From positions 1 to 32,063 of the IMG/VR virus record IMGVR_UViG_3300048929_000286: a stretch of DNA of 32,063 bases. The stretch is one strand, 5' to 3'. This document shows positions 5,541 through 27,023 of this stretch, piece by piece (position 1 is the stretch's first letter; each line of letters opens with the position of its first letter). The position numbers were made by a program, and so were the translations under genes. Below the pieces are notes generated by a model. The model made no database searches and had not been told where the DNA came from. It was given only the letters and a program-made list of their open reading frames with translations. This stretch comes from a virus.

Positions 5541-5593
5541 AATCTGACTTTGTCTATAAAATTCAAAATACTAATACCAACAAAAAATATTTT

Positions 5594-5613
5594 TGTCAAT
5601 TAACAAGTTGACG
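5594..5613. promoter_or_regulatory. operator-like dyad O1, TGTCAA-N8-TTGACG
   Basis: Half-sites at 5594-5599 and 5608-5613 with an 8-bp spacer. The same layout occurs twice more at 6893 and 6944. It lies about 60 bp before the repressor ATG, just upstream of the likely -35, as expected of an autoregulatory site. Confidence 0.62.
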
Positions 5614-5622
5614 AATAGATGT

Positions 5623-5652
5623 TTGCATTCATGGCAATGCTTACCATATAAA
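5623..5652 (+). promoter_or_regulatory. probable promoter of the repressor operon
   Basis: TTGCAT (5623-5628) and TATAAA (5647-5652) are 18 bp apart, 22 bp before the repressor ATG. A short inverted repeat, GCATT-N6-AATGC (5625-5640), overlaps the -35 and might be another binding site. Confidence 0.5.
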
Positions 5653-5673
5653 ATTCTTTATAGGGAGAAAGCT

Positions 5674-6063
5674 ATGAATACAGACCATAGATTAAGATTT
5701 GGAAAATACGTGGAGACACTTAGAAAAAGCAAAGGAAAATCTCTACGGGAAACGGCGAAAGCCATAAAAGTATCGCCACAGTTCTATAGTGAGGTTGAGA
5801 AAGGAAGAAGCAGCACCTTTACGTCAGAGAGACTGAAATCACTGGCATATTTTTTAATGCTGGATGATGAGGAAACCCACACGCTTTATGATATGGCAGC
5901 AGAATCGCGGTCATCTAATGACATTACAACACCCCAGGACTGTGCAGATTATATGCTCTGCAATTCTTATGTGATAGAGGCATTGCGGCTGTCGATGGAA
6001 ACTGGTGCAGGGGAAAAAGAGTGGCAGGTCCTGCTGAATGAATTAAAGGCAAGGAAAGGGTGA
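5674..6063 (+). CDS. Cro/CI-type HTH repressor
   Basis: A 129-residue regulator. The N-terminal XRE helix-turn-helix spans about residues 8-70 (FGKYVETLRKSKGKSLRETA, then VSPQFYSEVEKGR). The C-terminal part is short and lacks the Ser-Lys pair of LexA-like self-cleaving repressors. ATG 5674 is chosen because AGGGAGAAA lies six bases upstream; a longer frame from TTG 5593 would run through the promoter. Seven bases after its stop begins an ImmA/IrrE-like protease. This pair is known from mobile elements in which the protease removes the repressor on induction. It probably binds the three TGTCAA-N8-TTGAC dyads around this operon. Confidence 0.85.
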   Translation: MNTDHRLRFGKYVETLRKSKGKSLRETAKAIKVSPQFYSEVEKGRSSTFTSERLKSLAYFLMLDDEETHTLYDMAAESRSSNDITTPQDCADYMLCNSYVIEALRLSMETGAGEKEWQVLLNELKARKG

Positions 6064-6070
6064 ACCGATT

Positions 6071-6832
6071 ATGTACCAGCCAAAGTTAAGGAAAAAAAGA
6101 AATGGTGTTCCCATCATGTGTAATCAAGAGATCGATGCTCATGCAGAAGAATTTTTAAAAGATTATAATCCTTCCTTATTAAAGACCCCACAGCCAGTAA
6201 ACATGGAAGAATTTGCAGAATTTTATCTGGACTTGACCTTGGATTATACATACCTTTCTAATTGCGGACTGATTTTAGGCAGGATGGTATTCCAGGAGAT
6301 AGAAAGGGTCCCTATTTATCTTCCGGAAGAAAAATGTGCGGATTATCTGTATGCAAAGAGAGGTACCATGCTCATCGACAATACAGTGTTGGAAGACTGG
6401 AAGGAGTACCGGCTCCGCTCCACGATAGGACATGAATGCGGCCACTGGGTATTTCATTCGGACTTTTATGCATATGCCAAAAGCAGAAATAACCAGAAAA
6501 AAATATCAGCATCAGGAATCGTAGGATGTAAAAAAACGGATATTGAGGGTGGATTGGAGATAATCGGGAAGAAAAGGCTGGTTACTGATATAGACTGGCT
6601 GGAACATCATGCAAAATATTTCAGTGCCGCTATATTAATGCCAAAAACATCGTTTATCAATGCAGTTACAGACTTAACTGCCACCCCTTATTTTAATGAA
6701 TCAGATTTAGCAGAGAAACTTTCAGGGATATTTCAGGTATCACCCATTTCTGCCAGTATCCGGTTATCCCAGTTGGGATTCACCCAATATGCAGGCAAGA
6801 ATGCAAATACTCATGATGAAAAGACAGCTTAA
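6071..6832 (+). CDS. ImmA/IrrE-family metallopeptidase
   Basis: A 253-residue protein with the zinc protease motif HECGH at residues 121-125, inside RSTIGHECGHWVFH, and a downstream acidic region as in ImmA/IrrE proteins. In ICEBs1 the relative ImmA cleaves the repressor ImmR and so induces the element; the same role towards the upstream repressor is inferred here. The ribosome site AGGAAAGGG lies within the end of the previous gene, so the two are cotranscribed and probably translationally linked. MCNQEIDAH, 16 residues in, is a possible alternative start. A hairpin terminator follows at 6853. Confidence 0.85.
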   Translation: MYQPKLRKKRNGVPIMCNQEIDAHAEEFLKDYNPSLLKTPQPVNMEEFAEFYLDLTLDYTYLSNCGLILGRMVFQEIERVPIYLPEEKCADYLYAKRGTMLIDNTVLEDWKEYRLRSTIGHECGHWVFHSDFYAYAKSRNNQKKISASGIVGCKKTDIEGGLEIIGKKRLVTDIDWLEHHAKYFSAAILMPKTSFINAVTDLTATPYFNESDLAEKLSGIFQVSPISASIRLSQLGFTQYAGKNANTHDEKTA

Positions 6833-15612: not shown

Positions 15613-16960
15613 ATATCAGGATTATGCAAAGGAATTCATCATCGGACATCCGGTGAGCCTGCTTCTTTTAGACATGGGGTTAGGGAAAACCGTAATTACG
15701 CTGACCGCCCTTTGGGAGCTGTTGTTGGATTACTTTGAAGTCAGGCGGGTTCTCGTAATTGCACCTTTGCGTGTGGCAAGGGATACCTGGCCGAGGGAGT
15801 ATGAGAAGTGGGATCATTTAAATGGATTGCTGCTTTCTCCTATTCTTGGCTCGGAGAAAGCGAGGAAAGCGGCATTAAGCCGGAAGGCGAATGTGTATGT
15901 GATTAACCGGGAGAATGTTGAGTGGCTGGTAGGGCAGGGCAACTGGGATTTTGACATGATTATCATTGATGAGCTGTCCTCCTTTAAATCTAATAAGGCA
16001 AGGCGGTTCAAAGCTCTTAGAAAAGTAAGGGCGAAGGCACACCGGATTGTGGGCTTGACCGGAACTCCTGCACCAAACGGTCTGATTGACCTTTGGGCGG
16101 AAATTGGCATTCTGGACATGGGGCAGAGACTTGGAAGGTTTATCGGGGCGTACAGGGAACGGTTCTTTCTGCCGGATAAGCGGAGTCGGGATATGGTATA
16201 TTCCTATAAGCTGAAAGTAGGAGCAGAGGAACAAATCTATGGGTTGATTTCCGACATTACTATCAGCATGAAGGCGGTGGACTATCTGGAAATGCCGGAA
16301 TGCGTTTATAACCGGGTGGAGGTGAATCTGAGTGAGAAAGAGTATGACCTGTACCGGAAACTGGAAAAGGAAATGCTTCTCCCTTTTGAAGGCGGGGATG
16401 TGGATGCAGTCAATGCGGCGGGGCTTTCTAACAAATTGTTACAAATGGCAAACGGAGCAGTTTATGATGAAAACGGGGACGTGCGGCATATTCATGACCG
16501 AAAGCTGGACGTTCTGGAAGATTTACTGGAAGCGGCAAATGGAAAGCCGGTGCTGATGGCTTACTGGTATAAGCATGATAAACAGCGGATACAGGAACGG
16601 TTTCAGGCGGTTGAACTGGACACTTCGGAGGATTTAAAGAAATGGAACAATGGTGAGATACCACTTGCTATGATACATCCGGTATCTGCTGGGCATGGGC
16701 TGAACTTGCAGGCAGGAGGTTCTATGCTGATCTGGTTCGGACTGACCTGGTCATTAGAACTGTATCAGCAGATGAATGCCAGACTTTGGAGACAGGGACA
16801 AAGAGAAACGGTGGTGATTCATCATCTGATAGCGAAAGGCACCATTGATGAGCAGGTGTTTGCCTCTTTAGAGAGAAAGAATATCGGGCAGTCCGCACTG
16901 GTGGATGCGGTAAAGGTCAGGATTGGAGGTATCCGGGATGGATGTGGAAAGAATCTTTAA
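15593..16960 (+). CDS. SNF2-family DEAD/DEAH-type helicase
   Basis: A 455-residue ATPase. Motif I is LLDMGLGKT (about 23-31), motif II is IIIDELSS (about 122-129), motif III is VGLTGTPAPNG, and motif VI is QQMNARLWRQGQ near residue 395. The short two-domain form is typical of phage SNF2-like helicases paired with VRR-NUC nucleases. It probably remodels or unwinds DNA in replication or recombination. GGAGGTG six bases before ATG 15593 decides the start. The end overlaps the next gene by 23 bases. Confidence 0.88.
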   Translation: MKYNPHEYQDYAKEFIIGHPVSLLLLDMGLGKTVITLTALWELLLDYFEVRRVLVIAPLRVARDTWPREYEKWDHLNGLLLSPILGSEKARKAALSRKANVYVINRENVEWLVGQGNWDFDMIIIDELSSFKSNKARRFKALRKVRAKAHRIVGLTGTPAPNGLIDLWAEIGILDMGQRLGRFIGAYRERFFLPDKRSRDMVYSYKLKVGAEEQIYGLISDITISMKAVDYLEMPECVYNRVEVNLSEKEYDLYRKLEKEMLLPFEGGDVDAVNAAGLSNKLLQMANGAVYDENGDVRHIHDRKLDVLEDLLEAANGKPVLMAYWYKHDKQRIQERFQAVELDTSEDLKKWNNGEIPLAMIHPVSAGHGLNLQAGGSMLIWFGLTWSLELYQQMNARLWRQGQRETVVIHHLIAKGTIDEQVFASLERKNIGQSALVDAVKVRIGGIRDGCGKNL

Positions 16961-17423
16961 AGAATACCGGGAATGGAAACGTAACCTGGCCTTGTTAGAA
17001 TTTGAGCTGGGCAGGTTTCAGGGAATCCCGTATGAAGACGTTATCGAGAGCCTGTGTTTTTCAAAGCAACAGGGTGAGCGTATACAGACCAGCGGTACTT
17101 CCGATAAAACAGGAATGACCGCCATGGTTTACAGGCAGGTAAAGGAAAGGCTGGATGATGAGTGGTTTGATTTTTTGATGGGACGCTATAAACAGATTAA
17201 AGAAGAAATGGATTTCCTGGAATATGCCATTCGCCAACTGAGCGGGCGTCTGCCTGAGATTATATGGGATATGATTATAGAACAGGCAAGCTGGCAGGAG
17301 CTAATGATAAAATATAATGTAAGCCATGCCATGGTTGGAAAGTACAGGAAGAAAGCCGTGGAGGAACTGAAATGGATTTATGAACTGCGGGGGCAGCAGA
17401 CCGAAGCATATTTTCTGAACTGA
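16938..17423 (+). CDS. phage sigma-like / ArpU-like transcriptional regulator
   Basis: A 161-residue protein. The N-terminal half is helical (MDVERIFKEYREWKRNLALL). The C-terminal end has a helix-turn-helix like sigma region 4: MIIEQASWQELMIKYNVSHA, then VGKYRKKAVEEL. Proteins of this kind (ArpU or DUF1492-like) commonly close the early region of Bacillota phages and switch on late genes. That fits its position as the last early gene before the promoter at 18230. GGAGGT seven bases before ATG 16938 decides the start. Confidence 0.72.
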   Translation: MDVERIFKEYREWKRNLALLEFELGRFQGIPYEDVIESLCFSKQQGERIQTSGTSDKTGMTAMVYRQVKERLDDEWFDFLMGRYKQIKEEMDFLEYAIRQLSGRLPEIIWDMIIEQASWQELMIKYNVSHAMVGKYRKKAVEELKWIYELRGQQTEAYFLN

Positions 17424-17451
17424 AACAGGTCCTGAGACATTGCTGTTTCAG
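17420..17451. terminator. hairpin at the end of the early operon
   Basis: CTGAAACAG (17420-17428) and CTGTTTCAG (17443-17451) are perfect complements and overlap the stop codon of the last early gene. There is no T-run on either strand, so termination would be weak or Rho-dependent. It lies between convergent genes. Confidence 0.45.
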
Positions 17452-17461
17452 GAGCTGAAAA

Positions 17462-17827
17462 CTATACTTGTGAAAGATGGGATACTGCATCTTCCAGCGT
17501 GGCTGTAAAAAAGATATCTTTCCCGTGATTACTTTCATAGATGAAATCGTGGAGGGGTTTACTTGTATAGTGGGAGTAATCCCCTACGATAGCAATTTTG
17601 ATTCCGTAATTTATAAACTTTTGCAAGATCTCCCCGGCAAGGCAGGTGCTGAGTTTGAAAAAGTCTTCGCACACGGATGATTTGTCCAGAATGATTCTGG
17701 TACATTGGGTTTCGTATTGTACAGTTGCCATTAAGTCTAAGGCACTTTGGGTATCGGTAATCAGGAGTTCTGCTCCGGTAATCCGTGCCATTTGTATTTC
17801 GTTGTTTTGAATGATTTCTATCTTCAT
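17462..17827 (-). CDS. DUF4180 protein
   Basis: A 121-residue protein that matches the DUF4180 pattern throughout: a short N-terminal strand (MKIEIIQ), LLITDTQSALDLMATVQYET (about 21-40), IILDKSSVCEDFFKLSTCLA, then GEILQKFINYGIKIAIVGD, and a C-terminal DIFFTATLEDAV. The biochemical function is unknown; the fold may be STAS-like. It runs against the phage genes and lies between the early and late blocks, as cargo. GGAG lies 12 bases before the ATG, slightly far. A long leader with a probable attenuator lies upstream, so expression is likely conditional. Confidence 0.75.
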   Translation of the reverse strand: MKIEIIQNNEIQMARITGAELLITDTQSALDLMATVQYETQCTRIILDKSSVCEDFFKLSTCLAGEILQKFINYGIKIAIVGDYSHYTSKPLHDFIYESNHGKDIFFTATLEDAVSHLSQV

Positions 17828-17862
17828 CTTATCATTTATCTCCTTTATTATGTGCTTTGAAT

Positions 17863-17904
17863 CTAATTTAGAAAGTCAGAACGGACATCTTTATTATGTC
17901 CCAT
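17863..17904 (-). CDS. 13-codon peptide with a strong ribosome site
   Basis: On the minus strand AAAGGTGGTGATACC precedes ATG 17904, and the frame MGHNKDVRSDFLN ends with TAG. It lies between the terminator at 17955-17993 and the DUF4180 gene. It could be a second leader peptide, or the start of a gene that was replaced by DUF4180. Confidence 0.4.
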   Translation of the reverse strand: MGHNKDVRSDFLN

Positions 17905-17950
17905 GGTATCACCACCTTTCAAAAATATAAATAAGTAAACTGTTATCATG

Positions 17951-18080
17951 AAAAAAACCACATGAGTAAAGGGTTACTTTACCGATGTGGTTTCTAAAAA
18001 TGTATTTATAAGCCACATGGATACAACACGACACGATTAGCGTCCATATCCATGAATGAATTTCAGGGATAGAACGCTAA
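17951..18080 (-). promoter_or_regulatory. probable transcription attenuator in the DUF4180 leader
   Basis: Read on the minus strand, three elements follow each other. A hairpin (18074-18080 with 18037-18043, plus 18067-18071 with 18047-18051) begins at the leader-peptide stop codon. Then a segment at 18010-18018 can pair with 17985-17993. That pairing would compete with a terminator formed by 17985-17993 and 17955-17963, followed by T7 (17951-17957 on the plus strand are A). The terminator stem is extended by GTAAAG and CTTTAC. The layout matches ribosome-mediated attenuation, with a terminator and a competing antiterminator. Confidence 0.6.
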
Positions 18081-18130
18081 CTATCTGCGGCTTCTTCAAT
18101 TCTTTTGCGGTTCATAAAATACATGATCAT
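18077..18130 (-). CDS. 17-codon leader peptide upstream of the attenuator
   Basis: ATG 18130 follows AAAGGCAGGTA and encodes MIMYFMNRKRIEEAADS. Its stop codon lies within the 5' arm of the first leader hairpin. Leader peptides of this size and position control attenuation of several antibiotic-response and amino-acid genes; the inducer is unknown here. A longer minus-strand frame starting at 18328 has no ribosome site and is not favoured. Confidence 0.45.
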   Translation of the reverse strand: MIMYFMNRKRIEEAADS

Positions 18131-18155
18131 TACCTGCCTTTTTGATATGGAAATT

Positions 18156-18184
18156 AAATTATCATAAAAAGAAGGTAAAGTCAA
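18156..18184 (-). promoter_or_regulatory. probable promoter for the DUF4180 leader transcript
   Basis: On the minus strand TTGACT (18184-18179) and TAATTT (18161-18156) are 17 bp apart, with GATAAT overlapping just upstream of the -10. It starts about 25 bp before the leader peptide, and faces away from the plus-strand promoter at 18230. Confidence 0.5.
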
Positions 18185-18229
18185 ATGTTTTTTTTGTTTT
18201 TGGTAGACTAAGTGTAGACAATGAGTTGA

Positions 18230-18382: not shown

Positions 18383-18736
18383 ATGCCGAGAAAGCCAAAG
18401 AAGCCCTGCTGGTATCCGGGATGCCCGAATCTGACAGAGTCAGCCTATTGTGAAGAACACAGCTATCTGTATAAGACAGAGCGTACCGGAGCATCGGAGA
18501 GAGGTTATAACGGACGATGGCGGATAGCCAGGCGCAGGTATCTGAAAGAACACCCGCTGTGTGTCCGGTGCCGGGAACGTGGGAAGCTGGTGAAAGCCAC
18601 CGTAGTGGATCATATTATTCCGCACCGTGGAAATGGAGAATTGTTCTGGGATGAGTCCAACTGGCAGGCGCTGTGTAAGAATTGCCATGATAGAAAGACG
18701 ATGACGGAAGACCGTTATCAGGAATACAGATACTGA
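18383..18736 (+). CDS. phage HNH endonuclease (packaging-associated)
   Basis: A 117-residue HNH protein. Zinc ligands are in PGCPNLTESAYCEEH and PLCVRC; the HNH core is VVDHIIPHRGN (about 74-84) with DESNWQALCKNCHDRKT. Phages of this type need an HNH endonuclease together with terminase for specific DNA cleavage at cos or pac, and the gene usually lies just upstream of the terminase genes. Here several cargo genes separate it from the small terminase at 23968. GGAAGGAG precedes ATG 18383. It is followed by a strong hairpin terminator. Confidence 0.9.
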   Translation: MPRKPKKPCWYPGCPNLTESAYCEEHSYLYKTERTGASERGYNGRWRIARRRYLKEHPLCVRCRERGKLVKATVVDHIIPHRGNGELFWDESNWQALCKNCHDRKTMTEDRYQEYRY

Positions 18737-26020: not shown

Positions 26021-26072
26021 GGATGAAATAAATAAGAATCAAAATATTCAATGGGATTTGAAGGAGGAATGT

Positions 26073-26546
26073 ATGGTCCAAGATGATGAATCTGTATTGT
26101 TAAAAGAATATTTGTATTATTATGCCATTACTTTAAAAGTTGGGCTATTCTCCATCAAGGAATATAATATTTGGTTGGATAATATTTTCCTTAACGAAGT
26201 TGATAATGAATTCCTGGTTGAGTTAGAATTTTCTTCAAATGATATAAATTCTACTATTCATATCATTAATAGTTTAATAGATCCTAATATATCAAGACTT
26301 GACTTTGATTTTGTTGGAAAGCTGTTGTTTAAAGCATTTGAAGCAAAATATCATCAAGATACTTGCATCCTGGAAGATTTAGCACATCAGGCATATAGTA
26401 TATGGAATATTTTACCTCATAATATTGCGAATAAGGAGCCATTTTACACTTTATGTTATATTGATGACCCTCTTAGTTATGGAGATGAAAAACAAACAAG
26501 AGAACTATTTCATAAGCTATTTAATTATTATGGGGTTAATCATTGA
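26073..26546 (+). CDS. hypothetical acidic AT-rich protein, moron candidate
   Basis: A 157-residue acidic, helical protein (LLKEYLYYYAITLKVGLFSI, FLVELEFSSNDINSTI, ILEDLAHQAYSIWNILP). I do not recognise it. The size, acidity and position resemble small immunity or exclusion proteins, but this is only an impression. AGGAGG precedes ATG 26073; an in-frame TTG at 26058 is disfavoured. It is clearly more AT-rich than the terminase and portal genes on each side, and has its own promoter-like element. Confidence 0.6.
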   Translation: MVQDDESVLLKEYLYYYAITLKVGLFSIKEYNIWLDNIFLNEVDNEFLVELEFSSNDINSTIHIINSLIDPNISRLDFDFVGKLLFKAFEAKYHQDTCILEDLAHQAYSIWNILPHNIANKEPFYTLCYIDDPLSYGDEKQTRELFHKLFNYYGVNH

Positions 26547-26612
26547 CAAATAGCTGTTCGTATTAAAATTCAACAGAGCCCCAAACAAAAATTTGAAAGG
26601 GAGCCGTACAGT

Positions 26613-27023
26613 ATGAAAATGCCCGATAAAATTGAAACTACAATGTTTGCACCCTGTGGAATGAACTGCTTGGTATGTTATAAACATTGTTATCATAAGA
26701 AACCTTGTGTTGGTTGTTTGAATGGCGACAATGGCAAGCCAGAGCATTGCCGGAAATGTAAAATTAAAGATTGTGTCAAAGAAAAGGAATTTTCTTATTG
26801 CTTCGAATGTACAGAGTATCCATGTAAACAAATCAAATCACTCGAAAAAAGCTATAATTCCCGTTACAATGCAAGTCTTGTGAAAAACAGCAGTACAGCA
26901 AAAGAAATAGGACTTGTGGAGTTTATGAAGTTTCAGCAGAAAGAGTATACCTGTTCTGTTTGTGGCGGTATAATCTCGATTCATGACGCTGAATGTAGCG
27001 AGTGCCAGACAAAAAGCAAATGA
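26613..27023 (+). CDS. DUF3795 cysteine-rich protein
   Basis: A 136-residue protein with the DUF3795 pattern: MFAPCGMNCLVCYKHC, then CVGCLNGDNG, CRKCKIKDC and SYCFECTEYPC (about residues 14-76). A further pair of knuckles, CSVCGG and CSECQ, lies at the C-terminus. It has more than a dozen cysteines and probably binds zinc or an Fe-S cluster; the function of the family is unknown. AAAGGGAG precedes ATG 26613. It is the second gene of an insertion between the terminase and portal, and a terminator follows. Confidence 0.78.
   Translation: MKMPDKIETTMFAPCGMNCLVCYKHCYHKKPCVGCLNGDNGKPEHCRKCKIKDCVKEKEFSYCFECTEYPCKQIKSLEKSYNSRYNASLVKNSSTAKEIGLVEFMKFQQKEYTCSVCGGIISIHDAECSECQTKSK

Follow-up and report, generated by a model that had tools for sequence, protein, structure and literature searches.

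The locus and its elements

The stretch of DNA analysed here (the window) comprises 32,063 nucleotides of the virus record IMGVR_UViG_3300048929_000286, which carries phage genes (helicase, HNH, terminase and others). Between two plus-strand genes, one for a transcription regulator (16923-17423, PHROG 36) and one for an HNH protein (18383-18736), lies a minus-strand unit made up of a leader and a gene of the DUF4180 family. An earlier note on this DNA had described a promoter, a ribosome site, a 17-codon ORF whose stop codon sits at a hairpin, an antiterminator and a terminator with a T7 run, followed by a second mini-ORF with a strong ribosome site and then DUF4180. Every one of these elements was found in that order on the minus strand, with the second mini-ORF at 17904-17863 and DUF4180 at 17827-17462. 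The features are as follows.

17402-18201, minus strand: foreign insert holding the leader, DUF4180 and the end of the regulator gene (~20 nt, altered), by alignment to the viral contigs L008-L010
18158-18184, minus strand: candidate promoter TTGACT-15-GATAAT with an A-rich tract upstream; weak, from sequence
18133-18140, minus strand: leader ribosome-binding site (RBS) AAGGCAGG; moderate match, from sequence
18077-18130, minus strand: leader ORF of 17 codons, MIMYFMNRKRIEEAADS*, from sequence
From the in-frame ATG at 18124, minus strand: the leader read as MYFMNRKRIEEAADS*, 15 codons, Arg-Lys-Arg at residues 6-8, from sequence
18107-18124, minus strand: 5' arm of helix P0, leader codons 1-6 counted from ATG 18124, by folding and shuffles
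18030-18085, minus strand: P1 hairpin with the leader stop codon inside, fold -24.1 kcal/mol
18013-18023, minus strand: antiterminator 5' strand UAUCCAUGUGG, whose partner CCACAUCGGUA (17990-17980) lies in the terminator
18000-18016, minus strand: 3' arm of P0, GUGGCUUAUAAAUACAU, overlapping the antiterminator strand, by folding
17951-17992, minus strand: intrinsic terminator, 15-bp stem with one mismatch and U7, -16.4 kcal/mol
17863-17904, minus strand: second mini-ORF of 13 codons, MGHNKDVRSDFLN*, with a near-perfect Shine-Dalgarno sequence (SD) AAAGGTGGTGAT, from sequence
17462-17827, minus strand: DUF4180 gene, 121 aa, predicted STAS-like fold, PF13788 E 5.8e-40

The promoter upstream of the leader fared less well than the other elements, for although the sequence is present at 18184-18158 its spacer is short, it does not appear in the output of a consensus scan and it must be regarded as weak. 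The leader SD could serve either ATG 18130 or ATG 18124, and the peptide begun at the latter, MYFMN-RKR-IEEAADS, has an AGG upstream at a suitable distance. Immediately before DUF4180 a three-codon ORF (ATG-ATA-AGA-TGA, encoding MIR; 17835-17824) stands close behind an SD and overlaps the DUF4180 start by ATGA, an arrangement in which translational coupling is possible.

A single foreign insert

In three related viral contigs (L008-L010) the similarity to the window, mostly 93-96% identity on either flank of the unit, breaks off after 17401 and resumes at 18202, with only about 25 bp where the window has the insert 17402-18201. The portion past the stop codon of the regulator gene (17424-18201, 778 bp) has a GC content of 36%, against 44% for the window, and the content of the insert is the promoter, the leader and DUF4180, with no other cargo. 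Judging from the sequence, leader and DUF4180 are together one foreign unit of ~780 bp, the cargo of a prophage or gut phage. The final codons of the regulator gene differ between the window and L008-L010, so the likely source of the unit is a related phage in which it was already present and from which it was transferred by recombination.

Other insertions may be present in these genomes. Just downstream of a large-terminase-like gene the window has two genes (26058-27023), one of no known family and one DUF3795, that resemble another cargo insertion. In L010 a minus-strand pair (5564-6213), resembling by eye a RelE/Phd-type toxin-antitoxin system, follows not far downstream of the HNH gene, and the region around that gene seems to be a cargo site.

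Folding of the leader and dependence on ribosome position

The leader has a fold z-score of -7.07, and none of 200 shuffled sequences was equally stable. Folding also pairs leader codons 1-6 with the antiterminator strand in a helix (P0), and a duplex of this quality arose in no more than 3 of 1000 shuffles. The earlier note had the order of the elements right but missed this helix; because of P0 the predicted 'on' state is an early stall and not one at the stop codon.

The ribosome was modelled as a blocked stretch of RNA, with codons counted from ATG 18124. The probability of the antiterminator was 0.12 without a ribosome, 0.96-0.99 with the P site anywhere in codons 1-10 and 0.07-0.02 with the P site at codons 14-15 (0.02 at the stop); without a ribosome and at the stop the terminator forms instead. 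This dependence on ribosome position was stable for footprints from -11/+14 to -17/+18. When the upstream part was replaced by dinucleotide shuffles the gain over the free state was equalled in 2/400 and the gain over the stop state in 6/400, with both gains together in a single case of the 400; when only the region from the stop codon to the terminator was shuffled both were equalled in 4/400. Short ORFs are admittedly common, and 17% of those in the window carry a basic-X-basic motif, yet with such a fold score and with switch behaviour in only 1/400 shuffles it is very improbable that ORF, hairpins and terminator came together by chance.

Timing matters as much as position. With 192 nt exposed, which places the polymerase approximately on the U tract, the antiterminator had a probability of 0.96 for a ribosome at codon 7, whereas with the leader free or the ribosome at the stop the terminator stood at 0.62, rising to 0.98 at 194 nt. 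With the ribosome on codon 1 the antiterminator was already losing at 192 nt (0.23 vs 0.47 for the terminator), so stalls at the start codon may induce less. After the whole stem has emerged the terminator wins whatever the position of the ribosome, and control must therefore be kinetic, during transcription, as in other attenuators.

A mechanism can be proposed on this basis. With no ribosome, codons 1-6 would bind the antiterminator strand (P0), the terminator would form and transcription would end. A ribosome at the stop codon would melt P1 but leave P0 free to form, again giving the terminator. A ribosome held in codons 1-10, however, would block P0 and allow P1 to fold, and the freed strand would then take the 5' arm of the terminator; with that arm captured RNA polymerase would continue into DUF4180. 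Two hallmarks of an attenuator were found, namely a leader ORF with an RBS upstream of an intrinsic terminator and, by computation only, mutually exclusive terminator and antiterminator structures chosen by ribosome position. Computation shows the elements, the alternative pairings, how these depend on where the ribosome is and when, and the foreign insert, and we consider it probable that a ribosome-mediated transcription attenuator controls DUF4180 as prophage cargo.

Expression might instead be constitutive, driven from a promoter-like site on the 3' side of the terminator (17922-17893, TTGAAA/CATAAT, a 10/12 match in the consensus scan) that could possibly bypass the switch; the terminator would then only insulate DUF4180 or shield phage genes on the sense strand. 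A DUF4180 gene in another phage contig, L016, does have its own near-consensus promoter without a leader. The scan gave 7 sites compared with 3.5 in shuffles, however, so single promoter matches mean little, and since constitutive expression also fails to account for P0, for a leader ORF with an RBS and for the effect of ribosome position we regard it as unlikely.

The signal

The computed switch gives good support to the attenuation reading of the earlier note; its suggestion of drug sensing has a specific clue, Arg-Lys-Arg, that falls short of proof. If an attenuator does operate here, the signal is probably a ribosome-targeting drug, that is, a translation inhibitor that stalls ribosomes early. 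Any drug holding ribosomes at codons 1-10 would favour the antiterminator, so that Arg-Lys-Arg would not be required, and inhibitors acting at the start codon would also be expected to switch the leader on. The same breadth leaves room for an attenuator that responds to something else (amino-acid starvation, the nascent chain, or a ligand, be it a small molecule or a protein), as the model is turned on by any ribosome held on codons 1-10; the leader has no run of regulatory codons, however, and no Rfam family reached its gathering score, and such signals appear improbable.

Basic-X-basic at residues 6-8 occurs in 2.2% of the 416 short ORFs of the window, and 17% of the same ORFs have it somewhere among residues 1-14; its position in the leader is suggestive only. 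It is the position found in known leaders. With erythromycin or telithromycin ErmDL (MTHSM-RLR) halts the ribosome when codon 7 occupies the P site and codon 8 the A site (PMC8298421), and by analogy a macrolide- or ketolide-type stall at Arg6-Lys7-Arg8 would be the first candidate inducer. The behaviour of ErmDL also depends on the residues ahead of the motif, which are different in the window leader; in the variant MDTLN-RLR arrest was relieved or lost (PMC8298421), and the window leader likewise has Asn before the basic motif, which counts against a macrolide stall.

Comparison with known leaders

One close likeness is to Mef(E)L of mef(E)-mel in Streptococcus, a transcription attenuator leader (MTASMRLR) with the motif at residues 6-8 (PMC4335068). 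Both have a promoter, a short leader with basic-X-basic at 6-8 and a Rho-independent terminator, and the anti-attenuator that Mef(E)L forms on an early ribosome stall, at the transcriptional level (PMC4335068), has a computed counterpart in the window. The peptides differ (MTASMRLR against MYFMNRKRIEEAADS), no DNA similarity was found, and the target of Mef(E)L is an efflux/ABC-F operon whereas that of the window leader is a STAS-like phage cargo gene. ErmDL and ErmKL of Bacillus share the Arg6-X-Arg8 register, and erm(K) is transcriptionally attenuated (PMC8298421, PMC4335068), but the rest of the peptide is unlike and the target of ErmDL is a 23S rRNA methyltransferase. As a member of the ErmDL/Mef(E)L type the window leader has basic-X-basic at residues 6-8, provided that translation begins at 18124; an MTxSM-like N-terminus as in the peptides listed in PMC4335068 is absent, with MYFMN instead, and the gene downstream is DUF4180, of no resistance family, and not a macrolide resistance gene.

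MsrDL (MYLIFM) of msrD controls transcription attenuation through a drug-stalled ribosome at a terminator (PMC10314930), as proposed for the window leader, but it stalls at its own stop codon (PMC10314930), where in the window model a ribosome leaves the terminator on. The model thus speaks against an MsrDL-type stop-codon stall as the 'on' state (antiterminator 0.02 at the stop). The Gram-positive leaders of the ARE-ABCF genes vmlR, cplR and lmo0919 have a premature terminator and sense drug stalling through an upstream ORF (uORF) (PMC10201436), as the window leader would, although their uORFs have only 3-4 codons (MRI, MIN, MKL, MAGN) and cplR also sequesters the SD (PMC10201436). The toiL uORF of topAI-yjhQ in E. 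coli is a drug-sensing uORF on a non-resistance gene (PMC12121999), as the window leader would be, and is switched on by stalls from several drug classes (PMC12121999); it differs in acting through translation repression and Rho-dependent termination (PMC12121999).

Search for relatives of the leader

Upstream of no gene was a relative of the leader found. The patterns used covered plasmids, phages, viral contigs and 84,980 species genomes and gave no homologue; Clostridia genomes are the likeliest place for one. At the DNA level, plasmids and phages gave just 33-base chance matches in Flavobacterium phages; patterns for the leader peptide and for the hairpin had no match in viral contigs, and two matches in genome contigs were both the same alphaproteobacterial repeat-protein coding sequence. 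A literature search for the peptide gave no match. Among the Rfam cis-regulatory families none reached its gathering score, the best being trpB (29.4 bits vs 59), and the matches to trpB, RsaD and SpR14, all below threshold, were rejected.

The absence of the leader from other DUF4180 genes would fit a relic, an idea also raised in the earlier note, in which recombination joined DUF4180 to a leader that had served an ABC-F or resistance gene, with no adaptive link even if its mechanics are perhaps intact. An 11-bp direct repeat, ACATAATAAAG, located in the mini-ORF (17899-17889) and just 5' of the DUF4180 SD (17853-17843), could be the scar of such a fusion, and the SD of the 13-codon ORF is stronger than that of DUF4180. 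On the other hand, the pairings are intact and seldom matched by shuffles, no source gene for the leader was found in plasmid or phage DNA or in viral contigs, and leader and DUF4180 move as one insert. A relic is possible but less likely, and control of DUF4180 by the attenuator is preferred.

The DUF4180 protein

The protein matches PF13788 over positions 2-112 of 112 (136 bits vs a gathering score of 25, E 5.8e-40), while PADLOC, PHROGs and NCBIfam have no family for DUF4180. The sole paper found to name DUF4180 lists proteins none of which had been characterised, among them an alpha/beta hydrolase with a DUF4180 domain (PMC10920822). An AlphaFold2 model built with five viral relatives (L014-L018, 52-57% identical) reached a pLDDT of 90.4 and a pTM of 0.84; a model from the lone sequence (pLDDT 36.5) was discarded. 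The top Foldseek matches of the former were the STAS domains of Bacillus RsbS, mycobacterial RsfB, the stressosome and SLC26 carriers (probability about 1.0, E about 1e-3, TM-score 0.4-0.5), and the model thus points to a STAS fold as in stress-signalling proteins of bacteria. SLC26 STAS domains were also listed by phmmer, with insignificant E-values. Ser60/Thr61 are plausibly placed for a phospho-acceptor, but neither is invariant across the two alignments used (A1 and A2) taken together, and no invariant antagonist serine of the SpoIIAA/RsbS type occurs in them.

The predicted fold provides a first biochemical idea for DUF4180, partner switching or stressosome-like signalling, and an early-stall sensor, if true, would be the first clue to the condition under which it is used. 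On the structure model DUF4180 may be a stress-response or partner-switch component useful to a lysogen under translation stress. A more far-reaching proposal, and a tentative one, is that lysogens use it, apart from the resistance genes already known, in an uncharacterised response either to translation inhibitors or to an arrest of translation brought about by phage. If drug sensing proved true, attenuators of this kind would extend to phage cargo genes other than resistance genes.

DUF4180 in other phages and plasmids

DUF4180 is a recurrent cargo of other phage contigs. It lies between the tail chaperone and tape measure genes in L016 and L017, and between tail genes beside a GNAT gene in L018 (identities partly by eye), and at none of these three was there an attenuator leader. 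In two plasmids, of Enterococcus and Subdoligranulum, an alpha/beta hydrolase gene is directly upstream of DUF4180 (L003:5220-6363, L004:5142-6363). The pairing of an alpha/beta hydrolase with a STAS-like protein is reminiscent of RsbQ and the sigma-B energy-stress pathway.

The repeat AAATTCCAGTTTGT, which flanks DUF4180 in other phages, was considered as a possible mobile-cassette end and was rejected: its 16-base core had 17 viral matches, all of them chance-like, and the expected partner repeat was found at none of the 17. A short motif, TAAATTCCAGTTTGT / AAATCGGAATTT, is absent from the window unit and lies right at the DUF4180 stop codon in unrelated phages and in an E. faecium plasmid; a second, related copy mostly stands a short way ahead of the gene or of the pair it belongs to (L003:5110, 6362; L016:3974, 4362; L017:3974, 4362; L018:3506, 3893, 4381; L014:4362). 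Taken alone, the 16-base core has only chance matches elsewhere. The motif looks like one end of a small mobile cassette.
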